From positions 62,001 to 126,000 of the forward strand of contig JAGQLS010000002.1 in NCBI GenBank assembly GCA_020429045.1: DNA of 64,000 nt, given 5' to 3'. A program made the position numbers and the translations under genes. This document shows, one piece after another, positions 2,967 through 62,451 of this stretch. How positions within the stretch are numbered: the stretch's first letter is position 1; every line of letters starts with the position of its first letter. Below the pieces are notes generated by a model, which made no database searches, was not told the DNA's origin, and saw nothing but the letters and a program-made list of their open reading frames with translations. Source of the DNA: Candidatus Woesebacteria bacterium (GTDB lineage Bacteria > Patescibacteriota > Microgenomatia > UBA1406 > GWC2-37-13).

Positions 2967-4529
2967 ATGTCTCAAAAACGCCAGCGATTGCTCATTGGAT
3001 TCATTTTAACTCTCATCATTGTCGGCATCTTGGACACTGCATATCTTACGCTTCATTATCTTGATGGTTCTATTTCCTCCTTGTCCTGCAGCGTGGGAAT
3101 CTTTTCAGATTGCGGCAGAGTGCTCACGAGTGTTTACTCGCGCATCTTTGGCATCCCACTTGCTGTCATCGGCCTTGTCTATTATACAATTTTGCTGCAG
3201 TTGTTTATTTTTTCCCACCGTACAAAAAAAACCGTTTTTATATACGGCTTATTCCTTGTTTCGACCATCGGACTTTTGGCTTCGATATATTTTATGTATC
3301 TACAACTGTTTGTTTTAAAAACACTATGTCTCATGTGTTCAATCTCTGCCTTGACCAGCTTTTTGCTGTATCTTTGTATCCGTATCGGATACTGGCGGGC
3401 GTACCAAGCACTTGTTCTTAAGAAAATCGAGTTGCTCTATCGCTACATTGTGAAACCGATTTTTTTCACGATCAACCCCGAGTTTCTGCACGAGCGTTTT
3501 TTACACCTTGGTGCTACACTTGGTGCAAGTCGTTTTCTCACATCACTTACTGCACCAGTGTTTCGTTACAAAAACAAAACACTCGCACAAAAGCTCCACG
3601 GCGTATCCTTTCCCAATCCTATTGGGTTGTCAGCAGGCTACGACTATGAAGCGCGCTGGGCACGTTTCTCCGGATCAGTAGGGTTTGGGTTCACCACTGT
3701 GGGTACAATCTCCAACCTACCTTTTGCAGGCAACAAGAAGCCACGACTGGGGAGGTTGCCACGATCCAAAGCGCTTCTGGCAAACAAAGGTTTCCGCAAC
3801 CCAGGGGCAAAAGAAGTCATCAAACGTCTGCAGGGAAAAGCATTTGATATTCCAGTTGGCATAAGCATCGGGAGGACGAATCGGGCAGACATAGACACAC
3901 AAAAGCTTGCGATTGCAGATATCGTTGCTGCGTTTGAGCAATTTGAGTCATCAAGAGTGCAAAACGCTTATTATGAACTCAACATTAGCTGTCCAAATTT
4001 GAAAAAAGGAGTCGATTTTTACGCACTCAAAGACTTAGCCCCGCTTCTGAAAGCTGTGCAGGCGTTGAAGATCAAACAACCGATTTTTGTCAAAATGCCA
4101 ATCGACAAAACCGACAAACACAGCCTGAACATGGTCGAAGCTATTCACAAACACCACTTTGCAGGAGTTATTTTTGGCAACTTGCAAAAAGACAGGAATC
4201 ATCCTTCGCTAGTTCCCCAAGAGGTGGCGCGCATGGGTAAAGGGAACTTCAGCGGCAAACCGACGTATGAGCGATCCAATGAGCTTATCCTCGCAACCTA
4301 CCGCGCGTTCAAGAAAGACATAACGATCGTCGGCTGCGGCGGTATTTTTTCGGCACAGGATGCGTATGAAAAAATTATCCGCGGGGCATCTTTGCTACAA
4401 CTTATCACGGGTATGATCTATGAGGGCCCGCAATGCATGACGCAGATCAATCGTGGACTCGTCGATTTACTCAAAAAGAATGGGTTTTCTTATATTTCAC
4501 AAGCAGTAGGGAGCATGGTTCAAAAATAA
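2967..4529 (+). CDS. VKOR domain fused to class 2-like dihydroorotate dehydrogenase
   Basis: One 520-residue frame encodes two enzymes. Residues 1-150 form a membrane VKOR/DsbB-like thiol oxidase with four or five helices: Cys41 and Cys49 form the loop pair and Cys121-Leu-Met-Cys124 the quinone-side CxxC. Residues about 165-515 form a dihydroorotate dehydrogenase with class 2 features (PNPIGLSAGYD, TVGTISNLPFAGNKKPRLGR, GVIFGNLQ, VGCGGIFSAQDA). The catalytic base falls in NISCPN at Cys342, where class 2 enzymes normally have Ser; Cys is the class 1 choice. Both domains normally pass electrons to quinone. DHODH makes orotate for pyrimidines, and VKOR drives disulfide formation. The start follows a leaderless-type -10 box. 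Confidence 0.85.
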   Translation: MSQKRQRLLIGFILTLIIVGILDTAYLTLHYLDGSISSLSCSVGIFSDCGRVLTSVYSRIFGIPLAVIGLVYYTILLQLFIFSHRTKKTVFIYGLFLVSTIGLLASIYFMYLQLFVLKTLCLMCSISALTSFLLYLCIRIGYWRAYQALVLKKIELLYRYIVKPIFFTINPEFLHERFLHLGATLGASRFLTSLTAPVFRYKNKTLAQKLHGVSFPNPIGLSAGYDYEARWARFSGSVGFGFTTVGTISNLPFAGNKKPRLGRLPRSKALLANKGFRNPGAKEVIKRLQGKAFDIPVGISIGRTNRADIDTQKLAIADIVAAFEQFESSRVQNAYYELNISCPNLKKGVDFYALKDLAPLLKAVQALKIKQPIFVKMPIDKTDKHSLNMVEAIHKHHFAGVIFGNLQKDRNHPSLVPQEVARMGKGNFSGKPTYERSNELILATYRAFKKDITIVGCGGIFSAQDAYEKIIRGASLLQLITGMIYEGPQCMTQINRGLVDLLKKNGFSYISQAVGSMVQK

Positions 4530-48775: not shown

Positions 48776-49028
48776 TCAGTTCCCATAAACATTTCGTCTG
48801 TGGAGAATTCTCAAAATAACATATTTGTATCCACGGTATCAAATATTACTCTGTACGACCCAACTCTTCATTTATAGGTTTCAAGCGATATATCCGTAAG
48901 CTTTTGAGAGTGGAGCAAAGGATCTTTGGTATACAGTAGAATTTTTTCCCTATACGTTTTTTTACCACAGGATCAAGTTTTTTGATGTCTTTAGCTGCAG
49001 ATTGAGTGTAAAGAAGTTTATAGTCCAT
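48776..49028 (-). pseudogene. RelE/ParE-type toxin, frameshifted
   Basis: The first 29 codons encode a normal RelE/ParE start (MDYKLLYTQSAAKDIKKLD). A missing base in an A-run at the GKK codons shifts the frame. The continuation ILLYTKDPLLHSQKLTD is found in the next frame, then an in-frame TGA, RVGSYRVIFD, and another frame change before VILRILHRRNVYGN with its own stop. The full path is about 84 codons, the usual toxin length, so this is a decayed toxin rather than a short gene. Confidence 0.8.
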
Positions 49029-49366
49029 TACAGTTCACCGAAAACCTGACGATGAGTAAAAACATCGCCTTCCTCGTACTCTTGGCGAGATTTTTTAATG
49101 CTTTCACGATATTTTGGGTCGGCTAAAGGTATAAGATCCTCGAAAAGATCAATATCGACAATTGCCGAGGTGATTCTGTCTTTTTTTGCAACAAGAAGAT
49201 AGTCCCTGTTTTTCAATATAGTTGGCAACTTTTTGGGCATCGTCTCTTTCCTTTTCAAGTAAGTAACAAATATAGTGTAATTTCTTTCACCAAAAAATCT
49301 CGCTGTGCCAGCGCCTATTCCACTCGAAGAGCCTGTAATTAAGATAACTTGATTATTGTTTTGCAT
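49028..49366 (-). CDS. chimeric ORF: short-chain dehydrogenase N-terminus joined to Phd/YefM-like antitoxin
   Basis: 112 residues. Residues 1-38 are the start of a short-chain dehydrogenase (VILITGSSSGIGAGTARFF, the TGxxxGIG NAD motif). From about residue 43 the sequence changes to an antitoxin (DYLLVAKKDRITSAIVDIDL, then the acidic C-terminal region), which belongs with the broken RelE/ParE toxin whose ATG overlaps the stop. It therefore looks like a recombination joint at about 49250. The SDR part begins the last integron cassette. Whether the fusion is made or works is unknown. Confidence 0.7.
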   Translation of the reverse strand: MQNNNQVILITGSSSGIGAGTARFFGERNYTIFVTYLKRKETMPKKLPTILKNRDYLLVAKKDRITSAIVDIDLFEDLIPLADPKYRESIKKSRQEYEEGDVFTHRQVFGEL

Positions 49367-49422: not shown

Positions 49423-49616
49423 ATCTAACGTTCGCTTGTATGCGACGTTTTGCACCGGTTTTATCGGTACTTGTTTTGAGTTTAGCAGTTTCGTCTGATT
49501 ATTTAAAGACGTTCATTCAAGTACATTCGGAGGTGCAAAATGTGGGTGGAGTAAAAATGACATTCTACTAATATTAAAAGGGTCATTTTTACGGAACCGC
49601 ATACAAGCTGTTATCA
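49423..49616 (-). repeat. attC-like site after the ybaK cassette
   Basis: Read leftward: R'' box TGATAAC (49616-49610), arm CAGCTTGTATGCG, loop, arm CGCATACAAGCG and R' box GTTAGAT (49429-49423). TTGTATGCG and CGCATACAA pair perfectly. The loop is long (the site spans 194 bases) and includes a GTAAAAATGAC/GTCATTTTTAC hairpin. The R' box fits GTTRRRY. Confidence 0.72.
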
Positions 49617-49632
49617 GATGTTCTGTCACTCT

Positions 49633-50091
49633 TTACACTGAAAAGTTGAAAATGGTTGGCTTTGATAATTCAAGATAATCTTTAGTGTCCATTACAATCG
49701 AGTCAGTTAATGAACCAGCATTAAAGGCAATCTTCTCATTGCTTACTATTGAATTATCAACATAAAGTTCCAAATCAATTATTGGATTTCCAAATGGGGG
49801 AACTGAACCAGGCTCAAGACCTGTTAATTCTAAGAGTTCTTCACGAGATGCAAAGCGTGTTTTTTTAGTATTGAAACGAGCCTTGATTGCATTTGAATCC
49901 AGTTTTTTAGCGGCACTTAAAACAAAGATACGAAAGGTGTCACCAACTTTCAATATTAACGCTTTGCCACCAATAGATATATCTTCGCCACGAGCTTTTG
50001 CTGACTCTTCGGAAGTCTTAGTGACCTCGCGATGAACCTCCCTAAACTTAATTGATTTGGAATTTAGTCAACTTTTAATTTTCTCAAACAT
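49633..50091 (-). pseudogene. YbaK/EbsC-type aminoacyl-tRNA deacylase with TGA at codon 8
   Basis: From the ATG at 50091 the frame reads MFEKIKS, then TGA (50070-50068), then continues open for 144 codons: EVHREVTKTSEESAKARGE, ISIGGKALILKVGDTFRIF and GLEPGSVPPFGNPI, the YbaK/ProX editing-domain pattern. Such proteins hydrolyse mischarged tRNA. There is no good downstream ATG, so the gene is either disrupted by one mutation (TTA to TGA would do) or read through. It is the insert of the fourth cassette. Confidence 0.75.
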
Positions 50092-50139
50092 ATTAACGTC
50101 ATTAAATTGTAAAAGCCTCGATAAGAGTGACAGGATTTC

Positions 50140-50267
50140 CGATAACGTTCGCGTATAACTGAAGTTGCGCAGGTGTATAATATCCCGAAGGGGACACCTG
50201 TGCAATTTGGGTGAACCTGAGTGTGGCGGAGCGGAGTCGAAGGTGAACCAGTCATATGCTGTTAAGC
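50140..50267 (-). repeat. attC-like site after the third cassette
   Basis: Read leftward: R'' GCTTAAC (50267-50261), arm CAGCATATGACTGG, 128 bases overall, arm CAGTTATACGCG and R' GTTATCG (50146-50140). The R'' box exactly complements the core (TTAAGC) that opens this cassette at 50901-50895. The central part contains TCGACTCCGCTCCGCC and GCACAGGTGTCCCC segments able to fold. Confidence 0.72.
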
Positions 50268-50282
50268 GATGGCCAGCAGATA

Positions 50283-50861
50283 TTAGTTCTTAGAATTAAT
50301 TCTTAATTTTATTATTCGTTGAGCCAAATCGACACGACCCCATAATTCTTGGATGAAAAATTTATAATCATCAATTTTAATCCAATAATTTTCATCTATC
50401 TTTTCATTTTTGTTTTCTGGACAAAAAATTACTGCACCAACAAGCCCCCAGATAAATTTATTGCATAAAGTCAAATTACCCTTTTCATCAGACCCTATAA
50501 TTGTGTTATCGCTCCAAATAATTCTTTCATCAAGGCCTGTTGCATGTATTAATCCACATCGAATTATGTGGTACACAATATCCTCAACGCCACAATAACC
50601 TGTTGCATCTGGTTTTACATCTTTATGGTCAAATTTTATGCGAATTGTACCTGCCATTATTCCAGGTAAGCCCATATACGAAATAAGCCACATATAATTG
50701 GATACGAATTTTTTGTAATCTGATTTAGAAGAACGGCTTTTACCTGAAATTTTCTGTGCAGTAATATCGATGGCTATACAAACTTCTGTCAGGGCGTGTT
50801 CGATTTGGCCTTTTTCCATTTCATCTATCGCCTTCTTTATTCTGTCTCCAATTGTTAGCAT
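50283..50861 (-). CDS. cassette-borne hypothetical protein
   Basis: 192 residues from the ATG giving MLTIGDRIKK; the frame is open further upstream through the attC. No enzyme family recognised. Visible pattern: helical N-terminus (ALTEVCIAIDITAQKISG), GLPGIMAGTIRIKF, GVEDIVYHIIRCGLIHATGL and LCNKFIWGLVGAVIF. I recall similar sequences as orphan proteins in accessory islands, but cannot name one. It is flanked by attC sites on both sides. Confidence 0.65.
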   Translation of the reverse strand: MLTIGDRIKKAIDEMEKGQIEHALTEVCIAIDITAQKISGKSRSSKSDYKKFVSNYMWLISYMGLPGIMAGTIRIKFDHKDVKPDATGYCGVEDIVYHIIRCGLIHATGLDERIIWSDNTIIGSDEKGNLTLCNKFIWGLVGAVIFCPENKNEKIDENYWIKIDDYKFFIQELWGRVDLAQRIIKLRINSKN

Positions 50862-50894
50862 ATTATTAATATTTTTCTGAATCTGCTGGCTTTT

Positions 50895-50996
50895 GCTTAA
50901 TGTTTCGGCATATCTGATGTTTTGTGGAGCGTAGCGGAACAAAATATGGGTGGAGGCTTTTGTATAAAAGCCGTAACCAGATATGCCGTGTTAAGT
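50895..50996 (-). repeat. attC-like site after the protease cassette
   Basis: Read leftward: R'' ACTTAAC (50996-50990), arm ACGGCATATCTGG, loop with GGCTTTTATACAAAAGCC hairpin, arm CAGATATGCCGAA and box ATTAAGC (50901-50895). CGGCATATCTG and CAGATATGCCG pair over 11 bases. The R' box starts with A rather than the expected G, perhaps a mutation that disables recombination. Length 102 bases. Confidence 0.75.
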
Positions 50997-51120
50997 GATG
51001 TGTAATTTATTTCTTTTCTTTGCTGACCCGCTCCTCCAAAATTGATTCAAAATCATTGAGTTTCTCCGCTTTGATGACCAGTCCAAGATTGTTTGGAATT
51101 CTTGATATTGGTCGCACAGT

Positions 51121-51852
51121 TTAAGTGGTTGGTATATCTACAATTTTTAGCTCTCCTTCTGCTGTGTGTTGTGGCCCAGCATAAAGAATTCCTAGCAAAT
51201 AAATGCGTGTACCAACCACGGTTCCGCCTCCCTTTGCTTGGTACATGCCAGGATTATACAAAAGCACAGGCGAACCACTAGAACCAGGAAAGCAAGCCAT
51301 ATCAACCATAAATTCTTTTTTGCCGTTGTAATCATTATAAGCTGCGGTTGCGGTGATGCCTCGTCGAACAAGAGGAAGATTGTTCGTATGATCCCAAATA
51401 CCGTTTGGATAGCCAACCATAATCACATCTTCAATCGCCGTTAGATCGTTTAGTTGATCATGGCTTGCGATTAAGTCTTTTGTGAAGCTTCGGCGAAATA
51501 ACTTTGTTTCTTCGGTATCAAATTGCAAATGCAATTGTTGAGTTGGCATTATTGCCAGATCAACATCATCGTCAGGATGTTGGATCCAGGCTTTTTCAAA
51601 ATCAGTGATATTAATGTCATGAAATTTGTTGGGTATAATTTGCCAATCTTTATCGCACATCGTGAATCGCAATTTACCCTGAATTGCATTTGCAATTACA
51701 TGTTTGTTCGTAACTATAGTTGGAACATTATATTCGCCGATTTTAAAATTGAAAAAGAAGCCGGAGCCTGTGCTTTTGTGGTTGCCGGGTAAGACGCACT
51801 CAATTCGAGTGGTGCAGTGGAGGAGCTGGTCAGCAAAGCTTTGTTCAGTCAT
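51121..51852 (-). CDS. trypsin-like serine protease, cassette-borne, possibly cut short
   Basis: 243 residues. Triad: His51 in IVTNKHVIANA, Asp98 in DDDVDLAIMP, Ser in CFPGSSGSPVLLYN. No signal peptide, so intracellular. After the TAA at 51121-51123 the same frame continues for 37 more codons (RPISRIPNNLGLVIKAEKLN and on) to a TAA at 51007-51009, so the stop is probably a late nonsense mutation that removes a conserved tail. The ATG lies 20 bases after the cassette core site, as is usual for integron genes. Possible roles include defence or stress, as for other short trypsin-like accessory proteins. Confidence 0.8.
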   Translation of the reverse strand: MTEQSFADQLLHCTTRIECVLPGNHKSTGSGFFFNFKIGEYNVPTIVTNKHVIANAIQGKLRFTMCDKDWQIIPNKFHDINITDFEKAWIQHPDDDVDLAIMPTQQLHLQFDTEETKLFRRSFTKDLIASHDQLNDLTAIEDVIMVGYPNGIWDHTNNLPLVRRGITATAAYNDYNGKKEFMVDMACFPGSSGSPVLLYNPGMYQAKGGGTVVGTRIYLLGILYAGPQHTAEGELKIVDIPTT

Positions 51853-51872
51853 AAAGAAATAAATTACATTTC

Positions 51873-51986
51873 ACTTAACGCTTCGGTATATGCGAACTTG
51901 CTTGATTTTACAATGATATTTTACCACAAAATCATGCAAGTTGGGTGAGAGCCTGCAAGGCTCGAACCGCATATACTGTGTTATAC
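51873..51986 (-). repeat. attC-like site after the first cassette
   Basis: Read leftward: R'' GTATAAC (51986-51980), arm AGTATATGCGGTTCG, hairpins GAGCC-TTGCA-GGCTC and AACTTGC...GCAAGTT in the loop, arm CGCATATACCG and R' GTTAAGT (51879-51873). The R'' box is the exact complement of GTTATAC, which opens this cassette at 52819-52813. Length 114 bases. Confidence 0.75.
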
Positions 51987-52087
51987 GTCCCAAAGAGCGC
52001 AGCGTGGTCGGAGCGCCAGCGAAGACGTAATAAAAACCAATTTTCTCTTTATTCTTAATAATTTTGGCAATTATTAATCTATGAAAT

Positions 52088-52750
52088 TTATGTAGTTTGA
52101 ACCTCGTTTCTATAATTAACCCACTCGCTGTAATCTTCAGATATTTTATGCAATGGTGATACTTCAATAAACTTTGGACTATAATCTAGGGGACTTTTAG
52201 AAATTTTATCAATTATTGTGTTAACTCTTGCAGCCGATCTGCGGAATAATGGATTGGATGAAGCTCTCAACTGTACTCCATTTTCAAGTAATACTACTCT
52301 ATCTAAGACTTGTTTCACAATAATATCAAATAGTTGCGGAGATGCATTTAGCCGTTCACGTCCGTGTTGTGTACCGTCTAAATACCCTGTTTGTTCACTA
52401 TGAAAAATTGCGGTATCGTAAGACTCTTGTCCATCAAGAAAATTTGCCTGGGATAAGCCCACTAGAACGTCTTCAAGTGCAATGCTATCATTATCACCTA
52501 ACTCATGTTGTTCTGATAATTCTTGTGCTAGCGATCTACAACCTTCTTTTAAATCTTTAATTTCTTCAAGCCTTGCTTCATCTGTCAAATTTTCGCCGGA
52601 AGCCATCAATTCTAATTCTCTGGGTAAATCATCTAGTGATAGTTCCTGAGAATTTGCAGAATCGCCCAAAAGAAATTGATAAAATTCCCTAGAACCTGGC
52701 TTGATACGTTCAACTACTCCTGTTTTTATATCAGGGCTACTAATAGTCAT
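52088..52750 (-). CDS. first cassette gene, hypothetical protein
   Basis: 220 residues, soluble, acidic, no recognised family (helical segments LSLDDLPRELELMASGENLT and KDLKEGCRSLAQELSEQ). AAAGGAGGT lies six bases before the ATG, a strong Shine-Dalgarno sequence. This contrasts with the host-type leaderless starts in the rest of the window and suggests an outside origin. It is the cassette nearest the recombinase gene, hence probably the last one acquired. Confidence 0.65.
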   Translation of the reverse strand: MTISSPDIKTGVVERIKPGSREFYQFLLGDSANSQELSLDDLPRELELMASGENLTDEARLEEIKDLKEGCRSLAQELSEQHELGDNDSIALEDVLVGLSQANFLDGQESYDTAIFHSEQTGYLDGTQHGRERLNASPQLFDIIVKQVLDRVVLLENGVQLRASSNPLFRRSAARVNTIIDKISKSPLDYSPKFIEVSPLHKISEDYSEWVNYRNEVQTT

Positions 52751-52812
52751 AGTATTACCTCCTTTAAAATATTAATTGCCAAAATTATATCAAATTGGCT
52801 TTTTATTATGGC

Positions 52813-52819
52813 GTATAAC
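52813..52819 (-). other. attI/first-cassette junction (core site GTTATAC)
   Basis: Read leftward, GTTATAC marks the start of the first cassette. It is the exact complement of the R'' box at the far end of that cassette. The DNA between here and the recombinase gene (52820-52892) would be attI plus any cassette promoter. AT-rich TATATA and TTTAAC-like elements are present, but no clear two-box promoter can be set. Confidence 0.6.
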
Positions 52820-52892
52820 TGGTTTATATACGATATGTTTTTTTAATAAATGTTAAAATATGTATCATATACAAACTATTTCTCCTAATCTT

Positions 52893-53145
52893 ATGGCAAA
52901 TTTGATACATATTATAAATAAAGAACTCACACTGCGCAACTATAGCAAAAAAACAATAAATGCATATACATATGTTGCAAAAAATCTGTATACATACTAC
53001 AAAAAGCCTCTCAGAAAAATTACTACTCAAGAAATTAGGGAATATCTTTTCGACAAACAAAAATAGGCTTATCTAGTCAAACCATCTCGCTTTACGTAAA
53101 CGCAATCAATTTAAGATATTTTAAAAATACTTGTATTATATTCAC
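52893..53145 (+). pseudogene. tyrosine recombinase N-terminal fragment (probable integron integrase remnant)
   Basis: The frame from 52893 (also open from 52860) gives a SAM-like core-binding domain: KELTLRNYSKKTINAYTYV, then LYTYYKKPLRKITTQEIREY, ending LFDKQK at a TAG. One base later the next frame continues GLSSQTISLYVNAINLRYF, the expected sequel, so there is a frameshift at the A-run near 53060. The catalytic R...HxxR...Y domain is missing. It points away from the cassette array with the core site between, as intI does. XerC/D-like origin cannot be excluded from the N-domain alone. Confidence 0.65.
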
Positions 53146-53306
53146 CAGGGTTCATAAGAATGTTTGCTGATTGTTTATACCTATTTCAAGGAGAAGAAAC
53201 GGAAGTTAACGAATTAGGAAGATATTTTAGTTATCCACGATTAATGGAAAAGTATAGCTAAGAATAGTCACAGATGTTCTTCAAATAAACATAAATTTGA
53301 AGCGTG

Positions 53307-53399
53307 AGTGATCGACGGGGATCGAACCCGCGAGGTGCCGACTCGGTACCCTCTACAGCCCGCCGAATCGGCGGGTCTACCAACTGAGCTACGACCACC
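53307..53399 (-). pseudogene. tRNA-like sequence with palindromic insertion
   Basis: Begins and ends like the neighbouring tRNA-His (GGTGGTCGTAGCTCAGTTGG at the 5' end; GCGGGTTCGATCCCCGT T arm), but the D/anticodon region contains the 17-base palindrome CCCGCCGATTCGGCGGG (53359-53375). This is followed by CTGTAGA and a GGTACC-GAGTC-GGCACC hairpin. The CTGTAGA loop would read as Tyr GTA, but its flanks do not pair into an anticodon stem. Possibly a damaged tRNA-Tyr/His hybrid. Confidence 0.5.
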
Positions 53400-53405
53400 A
53401 ATTTG

Positions 53406-53479
53406 GGTGATCGACGGGGATCGAACCCGCGACAACCTGCTCCACAGGCAGGTGCTCTACCAACTGAGCTACGACCACC
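53406..53479 (-). tRNA. tRNA-His (GTG)
   Basis: Acceptor GTGGTCG pairs with CGATCAC, with an encoded G at -1 opposite C73, the histidine identity pair. The D arm is GCTC...GAGC, the anticodon arm CCTGC-CTGTGGA-GCAGG (anticodon GTG), and the T arm GCGGG-TTCGATC-CCCGT. CCA is not encoded. Confidence 0.95.
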
Positions 53480-53482
53480 AAG

Positions 53483-53731
53483 TTATGTTTTCAACGTATG
53501 TTCAATTTGTTTCTTTATAACTTCTCTTCCTGATTTTAAGAACCGCTCTCTTCGCCTTGCATCAAGTTCAGAGGTATATGCTTCGTAATATATAAGTTTT
53601 AACGGCCTTCTTGATCGAGTCGATGTGTTCATGCCATCATTATGAAAGGCGATTCTTTTTTTCACGTCGGTTGTATACCCAGTATAGAGTTTATGATCTT
53701 TTTCTGACCTAAGAATATAAACGTAATACAT
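53483..53731 (-). CDS. GIY-YIG nuclease-domain protein (UPF0213-like)
   Basis: 82 residues: YYVYILRSEKDHKLYTGYT (the GIY-YIG variant YVYIL...LYTGYT), KKRIAFHNDG with the catalytic Arg region, and LIYYEAYTSELDARRRERFLKSG. Stand-alone GIY-YIG proteins of this size are frequent in CPR genomes; their role is unknown. It lies between a truncated tRNA copy and tRNA-His, four bases before the tRNA. Confidence 0.88.
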   Translation of the reverse strand: MYYVYILRSEKDHKLYTGYTTDVKKRIAFHNDGMNTSTRSRRPLKLIYYEAYTSELDARRRERFLKSGREVIKKQIEHTLKT

Positions 53732-53737
53732 GTTATT

Positions 53738-53785
53738 TCCACAGCCCGCCGAATCGGCGGGTCTACCAACTGAGCTACGACCACC
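53738..53785 (-). pseudogene. 5' half of tRNA-His-like gene with palindromic insertion
   Basis: Read leftward: GGTGGTCGTAGCTCAGTTGG, TAGA, the palindrome CCCGCCGATTCGGCGGG (53761-53745) and CTGTGGA, the tRNA-His anticodon loop, then it ends abruptly just before the GIY-YIG start. The first 45 or so bases are identical to the tRNA-like copy at 53307-53399. Confidence 0.65.
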
Positions 53786-53885
53786 AATATAGGTATTATA
53801 TCAAAGGAACAACCTGAATTTACTTGAATACAATAAATATTGACTTCTTAGTATAGCTATTTTATAGTATATATATTTTCATACT

Positions 53886-61839: not shown

Positions 61840-62451
61840 ATGGATACAGAATTTAACTCTCCAACAACTCAGTCTGAACCGAACACCCTGCCAGTGAGTG
61901 AAAAGCAACAGAATGTAAGTGCTCTCAGAGATTTGGCTAGTAGTATAAAGGCAAATAAAGAGAAAGGAGTAGTTGTTTTAGTCGTGGGTGCCTGGGGGGT
62001 AGGAAAAACTACTTTGGGAAAAACATTGTCTAGTTTTTCAGATGGAGTTTATTTAGATGGAGACAAGCAAGGAGACTTTGAAATGATAAAAGAAAGACTG
62101 CATGGCAATATTTCTCCAGGGAGCTACACAGTTGTTGGTAAAAGTTTTGCAGAAAAATGGGCTCCAGAGGAAACTATTCGTCAACTACAACAAGATGGCA
62201 AATTGGTTATTGTAAATCTGACCGCAAATGAAGATACTAGAATGGAAAATATGTATATGAGGGCGGAGGGATATAAGCCACACAGTAATTATGATGTTGA
62301 AAGAACAAGGAAACGCATTCAAGAAAGTCCAGATTATCGAACACCTCTTGCAGATTTTGTACTAAATTTTAATAAAGAAGCTAGACCAACTATGGAGGAA
62401 GTTTCAGAATTATTGAGATCTGAATTATCAGTACCACCTCCTGAAGTATAA
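61840..62451 (+). CDS. P-loop kinase-like NTPase
   Basis: 203 residues. Walker A is GAWGVGKTT at about residue 49 (with VVLVV strand before). YLDGDKQGDFEMIKERL resembles the acceptor-binding Asp of small-molecule kinases, and VIVNLTANEDTRMENMYMRA with the Arg-rich ERTRKRIQE helix looks like a lid. It is probably a nucleoside or sugar kinase of unknown substrate. Confidence 0.65.
   Translation: MDTEFNSPTTQSEPNTLPVSEKQQNVSALRDLASSIKANKEKGVVVLVVGAWGVGKTTLGKTLSSFSDGVYLDGDKQGDFEMIKERLHGNISPGSYTVVGKSFAEKWAPEETIRQLQQDGKLVIVNLTANEDTRMENMYMRAEGYKPHSNYDVERTRKRIQESPDYRTPLADFVLNFNKEARPTMEEVSELLRSELSVPPPEV

Follow-up and report, generated by a model that had tools for sequence, protein, structure and literature searches.

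The 64,000-nucleotide stretch of DNA analyzed here, referred to as the window, spans positions 62,001 to 126,000 of contig JAGQLS010000002.1 in a 1.19-Mb, 95%-complete metagenome-assembled genome (MAG) of a Candidatus Woesebacteria bacterium (Patescibacteria). It carries an integron-like array of four gene cassettes on the minus strand, starting at an attI-like site beside a recombinase gene remnant that is divergent to the array, and each cassette holds a single gene followed by an attC-like site (Table 1). One covariance model fits all four sites over their full length (E 3e-20 to 1.5e-12), and a scan of the array for the pattern AAC-spacer-stem...stem-spacer-GTTA at every spacer length gave four matches, which are the same four sites, with spacers of 1 and 4 nt. 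An Rfam scan of the window returned tRNAs only and no other family.

Table 1. Features of the cassette array and the adjoining recombinase remnant (positions in the window, listed from the attI-like site onward).
Feature	Position	Strand	Description
Recombinase gene remnant	52893..53130	+	N-terminal core-binding domain; stop and frameshift; catalytic domain missing
attI-like site	52810..52837	-	sense ..TCGTATATAAACCA GTTATACGCC; GTTATAC is the cassette 1 opening box
Cassette 1 gene	52088..52750	-	220 aa, without known family
attC-like site 1	51873..51986	-	R'' GTATAAC ... R' GTTAAGT; model R1 94.8 bits, E=3e-20
Cassette 2 gene	51121..51852	-	243 aa, trypsin-like peptidase domain (PF13365); start codon 27 nt from R' box
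attC-like site 2	50895..50996	-	R'' ACTTAAC ... R' ATTAAGC; model R1 79.6 bits, E=2e-16
Cassette 3 gene	50283..50861	-	192 aa from ATG; no family above cut-off
attC-like site 3	50140..50267	-	R'' GCTTAAC ... R' GTTATCG; model R1 70.6 bits, E=4e-14
Cassette 4 gene	49633..49953	-	YbaK-like aminoacyl-tRNA editing domain (PF04073), E=3.5e-19
attC-like site 4, last of array	49423..49616	-	R'' TGATAAC ... R' GTTAGAT; long arms; model R1 64.5 bits, E=1.5e-12

Read from 52819 to 49423, the cassettes open with GTTATAC (at the attI junction), GTTAAGT, ATTAAGC, and GTTATCG, and close, in the same order, with GTATAAC, ACTTAAC, GCTTAAC, and TGATAAC. A first-pass annotation of the sequence had claimed that these boxes are complementary within each cassette and not within each site, and this proved correct: each of the four cassettes opens with the reverse complement of the box that closes it, with agreement at 15 of the 16 variable bases and P=2.4e-4 for 15/16 or better when boxes are drawn independently from 55 sites of other genomes. 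Permutation of the boxes, named beforehand as a possible refutation, gave no equal complementarity, as the observed pairing was the top of 24 permutations and the runner-up reached 13/16. The box positions stand as first read, except that the third opening box is ATTAAGC and not TTAAGC alone, with A replacing G at the conserved first position. Across 36 adjacent pairs from 13 arrays, the window included, closing boxes agree with the previous opening box at a mean of 3.25/4, compared with 1.85/4 within sites and 1.87 when permuted (P≤1e-5).

Complementarity of boxes within cassettes is established for integron cassettes in the literature on 59-base elements, so the bare observation is ordinary. 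Insertion of circular cassettes at this locus, as first proposed, is well supported by the within-cassette rule, the attI site, polarity, single-gene cassettes, and chains of matching boxes between neighboring sites in many genomes. The classical IntI-type integron that the proposal implied is not supported, because the sites are without the expected extrahelical bases, the associated recombinase is without the IntI-specific domain, and the gene in the window is a truncated remnant.

The recombinase is described here from relatives of the window genome and from a phylum sample of 380 genomes of which 50 encode it. The remnant in the window matches the recombinase of one same-family genome, G043, at 31% over 49 aa (tblastn, E=6e-7), and three same-family genomes have the gene: G008 has two intact copies, G043 has one, and G064 has one with an in-frame stop. 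The possibility that the relatives' genes are all broken was considered and rejected, since the stops in G008 and G043 are natural ends and a real in-frame stop occurs only in G064. The protein is an IntI/XerA-like tyrosine recombinase of ∼270 aa with a C-terminal SPL, and 22 aligned members are gap-free at the position of the IntI-specific insertion. This ∼42-residue insertion with the I2 helix is absent from the intact relatives and unreadable in the truncated remnant of the window, and the distance from KGxxR to LRH is 66 aa in nearly all members versus 108 in IntI, as measured in four cleanly readable IntIs. Profile scores fall short of every family cut-off, with 216.3 bits against TIGR02249 (IntI, cut-off 265), 213.5 against NF040815 (XerA, cut-off 220), 191 against XerC (335), and 191 against XerD (330); a TIGR02249 search of the same-family genomes matched mostly Xer. 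By sequence, the nearest proteins of solved structure are IntI4 (2A3V), whose alignment breaks at the insertion, and archaeal Xer proteins. An AlphaFold model (mean predicted local distance difference test score, pLDDT, 86.6) has the integron integrase 2A3V as its best PDB match, with 317-318 columns for a 270-aa query. In a small tree with a weakly supported root and long branches meeting at the outgroup, IntI and the Patescibacteria recombinases each form a clade of their own (100/100 and 92/80, respectively), and neither lies inside the other. One frame, in a Gracilibacteria locus (L109), contains many stop codons under table 11, as would follow if Gracilibacteria decode TGA to an amino acid (code 25).

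In intact relatives (e.g., L033, L077, and L091), the recombinase gene adjoins attI and the array. In 18 loci, the attI consensus TTCGnATAAAAACGAGTTA, which the window site fits, occurs at a distance of 55-140 nt upstream of the recombinase. The match between attI and the first closing box is complete at 9 of 15 loci; in the window, GTTATAC pairs with the first R'' box, GTATAAC.

The sites have a characteristic geometry. As called for by the first-pass annotation, the R and L boxes pair in a hairpin of the bottom strand, which is the plus strand of the window; of the extrahelical bases that it also named, the L'' base used by IntI is absent. Near the recombinase, the L stem is 11 bp long, free of gaps, and set off by spacers of 1 and 4 nt in 37 of 53 matches, and four more share this 1/4 register with a single bulge (two on the L' arm, two on the L'' arm), while the reversed-sequence control gave none with this geometry. 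The AAC/GTT core is present throughout the paired boxes, the spacers are asymmetric (1 nt for R''-L'' and 4 nt, or 3 nt longer, for L'-R'), and the base following AAC is A in 50 of 50 sites. An extrahelical base on the R''-L'' arm is thus confined, in the 1/4 register, to the two L'' bulges, whereas the same search of a control set of IntI arrays found the extra L'' base in seven of eight chained sites.

Above the boxes, the L stem gives way to a three-way junction that is conserved and covaries, and the L stem and the bases of arms 1 and 2 all covary across 50 sites, as in the change from CCCA-T...A-TC to CCCA-A...T-TC or CCCA-C...G-TC. A 23-site alignment with defined structure gave a covariation score of 0.589, compared with 0.153 when shuffled and ∼0.1 for slid partners, and 89.8% of its cells are paired versus 65.9% when shuffled, with 0 of 500 shuffles reaching the observed level. 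Despite a freely varying L-box sequence, pairing is kept by compensatory changes in 10 of 11 pairs, and this combination of free sequence and conserved pairing points to selection for a folded strand. The bottom-strand fold is stabler than the top in 45 of 50 sites (P=6e-9), and a conserved sense-strand A/C mismatch (46/50 sites) corresponds to a T-G wobble on the bottom strand.

Several unusual sites were also seen. An attC-like site of ∼310 nt (L033:11060-11370) holds a 57-aa open reading frame (ORF; MRKILKMIF...) within one hairpin arm. Near-perfect palindromes with AAC/GTT ends and no R-L spacer occur twice per array in L085 (sense 3946 and 9634) and L108 (sense 231 and 1894), and this spacerless, 0/0 class may be a further site type or a nested element. 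One chained site of a Thiodictyon IntI array that is otherwise canonical (L189, sense 3449-3534) is without the L'' bulge and has spacers of 3 and 7, resembling the sites of I2-less systems, possibly owing to cassette exchange between the two kinds of system.

The covariance model, applied genome-wide, finds sites in 65 of the 380 genomes of the phylum, including 41 of the 50 with the recombinase (Fisher 2.8e-29, odds 58). Since only a few candidates were scored in each genome, the per-genome site counts are minimum values. Most Patescibacteria loci lie on contigs of MAGs, and arrays are hidden where the recombinase is at the end of a contig, as several are. Many cassette genes in the loci examined begin no more than 40 nt from the opening box, and those of relatives encode NUDIX, methyltransferase, HNH, Bro-N, RibD, and peptidase S51 domains. 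Homologous HNH cassette genes were found in three genomes, which belong to different families, and the contexts of these genes differ.

Within the window genome, 95% complete, no intact recombinase of the family was found, only the remnant listed in Table 1. With four attC-like sites and no such recombinase, the array qualifies as a cluster of attC sites lacking integron-integrases (CALIN); it looks like a fossil, given that only an N-terminal piece of the recombinase is left, and like a decayed remnant that would be immobile unless a recombinase acts in trans. A covariance-model search of the genome found two solo attC-like sites adjoining single genes (G000:C58:42607-42723 and G000:C3:35671-35783), one site 3' of a 151-aa ORF and the other beside a kinase-like ORF, and these are possibly relics of off-target insertion. 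Among the cassette genes, an alternative 219-aa ORF of cassette 3, starting at TTG, would begin within attC-like site 2. The PF04073 match of cassette 4 covers only profile positions 31-122 of 123, and this gene is probably truncated at its 5' end. Just beyond the last site lies a truncated gene encoding a short-chain dehydrogenase fragment (49028-49366; first 39 of 195 profile positions). On the other side, the region 53306-53786 holds tRNA-Arg and tRNA-His genes, the segment cagcccgccgaatcggcgggtctaccaactgagctacgaccacc of the tRNA-Arg gene is repeated near 53742-53786, and a GIY-YIG endonuclease gene (53483-53731, minus strand) lies between the two copies of that segment.

Similar arrays occur outside Patescibacteria. 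The model also matches beside I2-less homologs in a Spirochaetes MAG and cultured Paenibacillaceae (L119, L122, L123, L126, L134, and L137); in Paenibacillus and Saccharibacillus, most sites are ∼96 nt long and lie on the downstream side of the recombinase, and the chains of Saccharibacillus kuerlensis are perfect. A general site scan found arrays beside I2-less recombinases in Flavobacterium and other Bacteroidota (L133:11442-20510, L121:11509-19316, L130, L145, L152, and L163), where they lie downstream of the recombinase on the same strand, reach 10 to 12 sites in the largest cases, and show perfect complementarity between neighboring sites. Flavobacterium difficile has 12 sites with 11/11 perfect chain matches, and F. 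enshiense has 9/9. At nine loci of Bacteroidota and Paenibacillaceae taken together, 37 of 40 pairs match perfectly (mean 3.75/4 versus 1.66 permuted), and the stems, most of them again without an L'' bulge, include 30 with no bulge, 11 with an L' bulge, and four with an L'' bulge. A Chryseobacterium plasmid whose recombinase is 40% identical showed no array. With IntegronFinder 2.0, the only complete integrons reported were from Salinibacter in Bacteroidetes and from Limnochorda in Firmicutes, so the present arrays seem to have been overlooked as complete integrons.

The window is best explained, with a probability of about 0.8, as what remains of a cassette array belonging to an integron-like system that occurs across Patescibacteria, for which a folded-strand mechanism is proposed. 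In intact relatives, attI lies beside a divergent recombinase and is followed by single-gene cassettes, each ending in an attC-like site. During capture, the bottom strand of a circular cassette's site would fold into a hairpin with the R and L boxes as recombinase arms, and the I2-less recombinase would join this folded site to double-stranded attI at G^TT. Joining at this point would linearize the cassette and leave one half of its R pair at each end. With neither the I2 helix nor the L'' base, polarity may come from the 1/4 spacer asymmetry, which would leave a 3-nt bulge close to where cleavage occurs. The three-way junction that is conserved over the L stem may be a second source. The literature attributes strand choice by IntI1 to the L'' base and reports that the spacer of a Vibrio cholerae repeat (VCR) site without extrahelical bases is still able to impose strand selectivity. 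Since the VCR spacer can do so, the 1/4 asymmetry is a plausible replacement for the L'' base.

Several points weigh against this explanation. Recombination by the system is inferred and not observed, and the recombinase is broken in the window's own genome. Nine of the 50 genomes with a recombinase yielded no site (some of these recombinases are at contig ends, filters were strict, and few candidates were scored), and 24 genomes have sites with no recombinase detected. The site model was trained mostly on loci picked beside the recombinase, though the phylum scan was genome-wide. Finally, published work shows that both the L'' base and I2 are of importance to those IntI proteins that have been tested, so the missing parts need a replacement, which is only proposed here.

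Three other explanations were weighed against the remnant-array reading. The sites could be Xer/dif-like modules, as in pdif, with ordinary double-stranded recombination by a Xer-type enzyme and incidental hairpins. A recombinase without the I2 insertion that scores nearly as near archaeal XerA as IntI would suit such modules, yet the compensatory changes in freely varying L boxes select the folded strand, the bottom strand is consistently stabler, site polarity is fixed relative to the genes, and the spacing is asymmetric, making this explanation unlikely. Even less probable is a decayed classical integron, with an I2-bearing IntI and attC sites with extrahelical bases, whose relatives were misread. 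The overall anatomy is integron-like, and the remnant protein is too short to reveal I2; however, this reading is contradicted by all intact relatives beside such sites, which are without the insertion, by the window sites, whose 1/4 geometry includes no L'' base, and by the tree, in which IntI and the Patescibacteria recombinases fall in separate clades.

Dispersed hairpin repeats resembling attC, such as terminators, repetitive extragenic palindromic (REP)-like elements, or transposon ends, are scarcely credible. The sites are indeed intergenic hairpins with two solo copies elsewhere in the genome, but repeats of this kind would leave unexplained the chain rule between neighbors, the invariant AAC/GTT boxes, the attI-like site, and the co-occurrence with one recombinase family, and they are contradicted by the permutation tests.

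I2 has been described as necessary for cassette capture and as conferring single-strand recombination, with no known intermediates (PMC7790495), and the extra domain serves as an identifying mark of IntI (PMC9024848, PMC9668308). In one integron-like subgroup, conservation of the insertion has been noted to be incomplete, yet the same paper called it essential for integron function (PMC8138268). Rule-obeying arrays beside I2-less recombinases challenge the view of I2 as necessary and IntI-defining, and they open the origin of integrons to testing in cultured hosts such as Flavobacterium and Paenibacillus. No link of insertion-less recombinases to cassette arrays, and no paper on Patescibacteria integrons or description of the system, was found in the open-licence literature; earlier publication elsewhere may exist. 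Evidence leans slightly toward a second, unrecognized branch of integrons in Patescibacteria, Bacteroidota, Bacillota, and probably Spirochaetota, in which folded-strand capture needs neither I2 nor extrahelical bases. If so, these two features would be later additions of the IntI lineage and not the innovation that created integrons. Finders that require the IntI domain miss I2-less systems as complete integrons, and cassette traffic is therefore probably under-counted in Patescibacteria, Bacteroidota, and Bacillota.

Compared with known systems, the present one shares with integrons (IntI/attI/attC, including VchIntIA with VCR in 2A3V) the single-gene cassettes, R'' and R' boxes ending in AAC and starting with GTT, attI beside the recombinase, within-cassette complementarity, hairpin sites, and the C-terminal SPL of the recombinase. 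Unlike integrons, it is without the ∼42-aa insertion and the extrahelical L'' base, has spacers of 1/4 nt where theirs are near-symmetric, and has a conserved three-way junction where their terminal structure is variable. The window array resembles CALIN in having sites without a working recombinase, but its site geometry is new, and the intact partner recombinase of relatives is not a canonical IntI. In size and in a domain make-up without I2, the recombinase resembles XerA, XerC, XerD, and the enzymes of Xer-exploiting modules; it differs in being additional to the genome's own Xer genes, in its SPL C-terminus, and in its array of structured sites as opposed to a single dif. Archaeal integrons likewise place cassette arrays outside the usual bacterial hosts, although archaeal IntIs are reported to keep the IntI-specific domain (PMC9668308). 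The system is integron-like in its working, yet departs from integrons in two of the defining features tested, the I2 insertion and the extrahelical L'' base, and is best filed as a variant.

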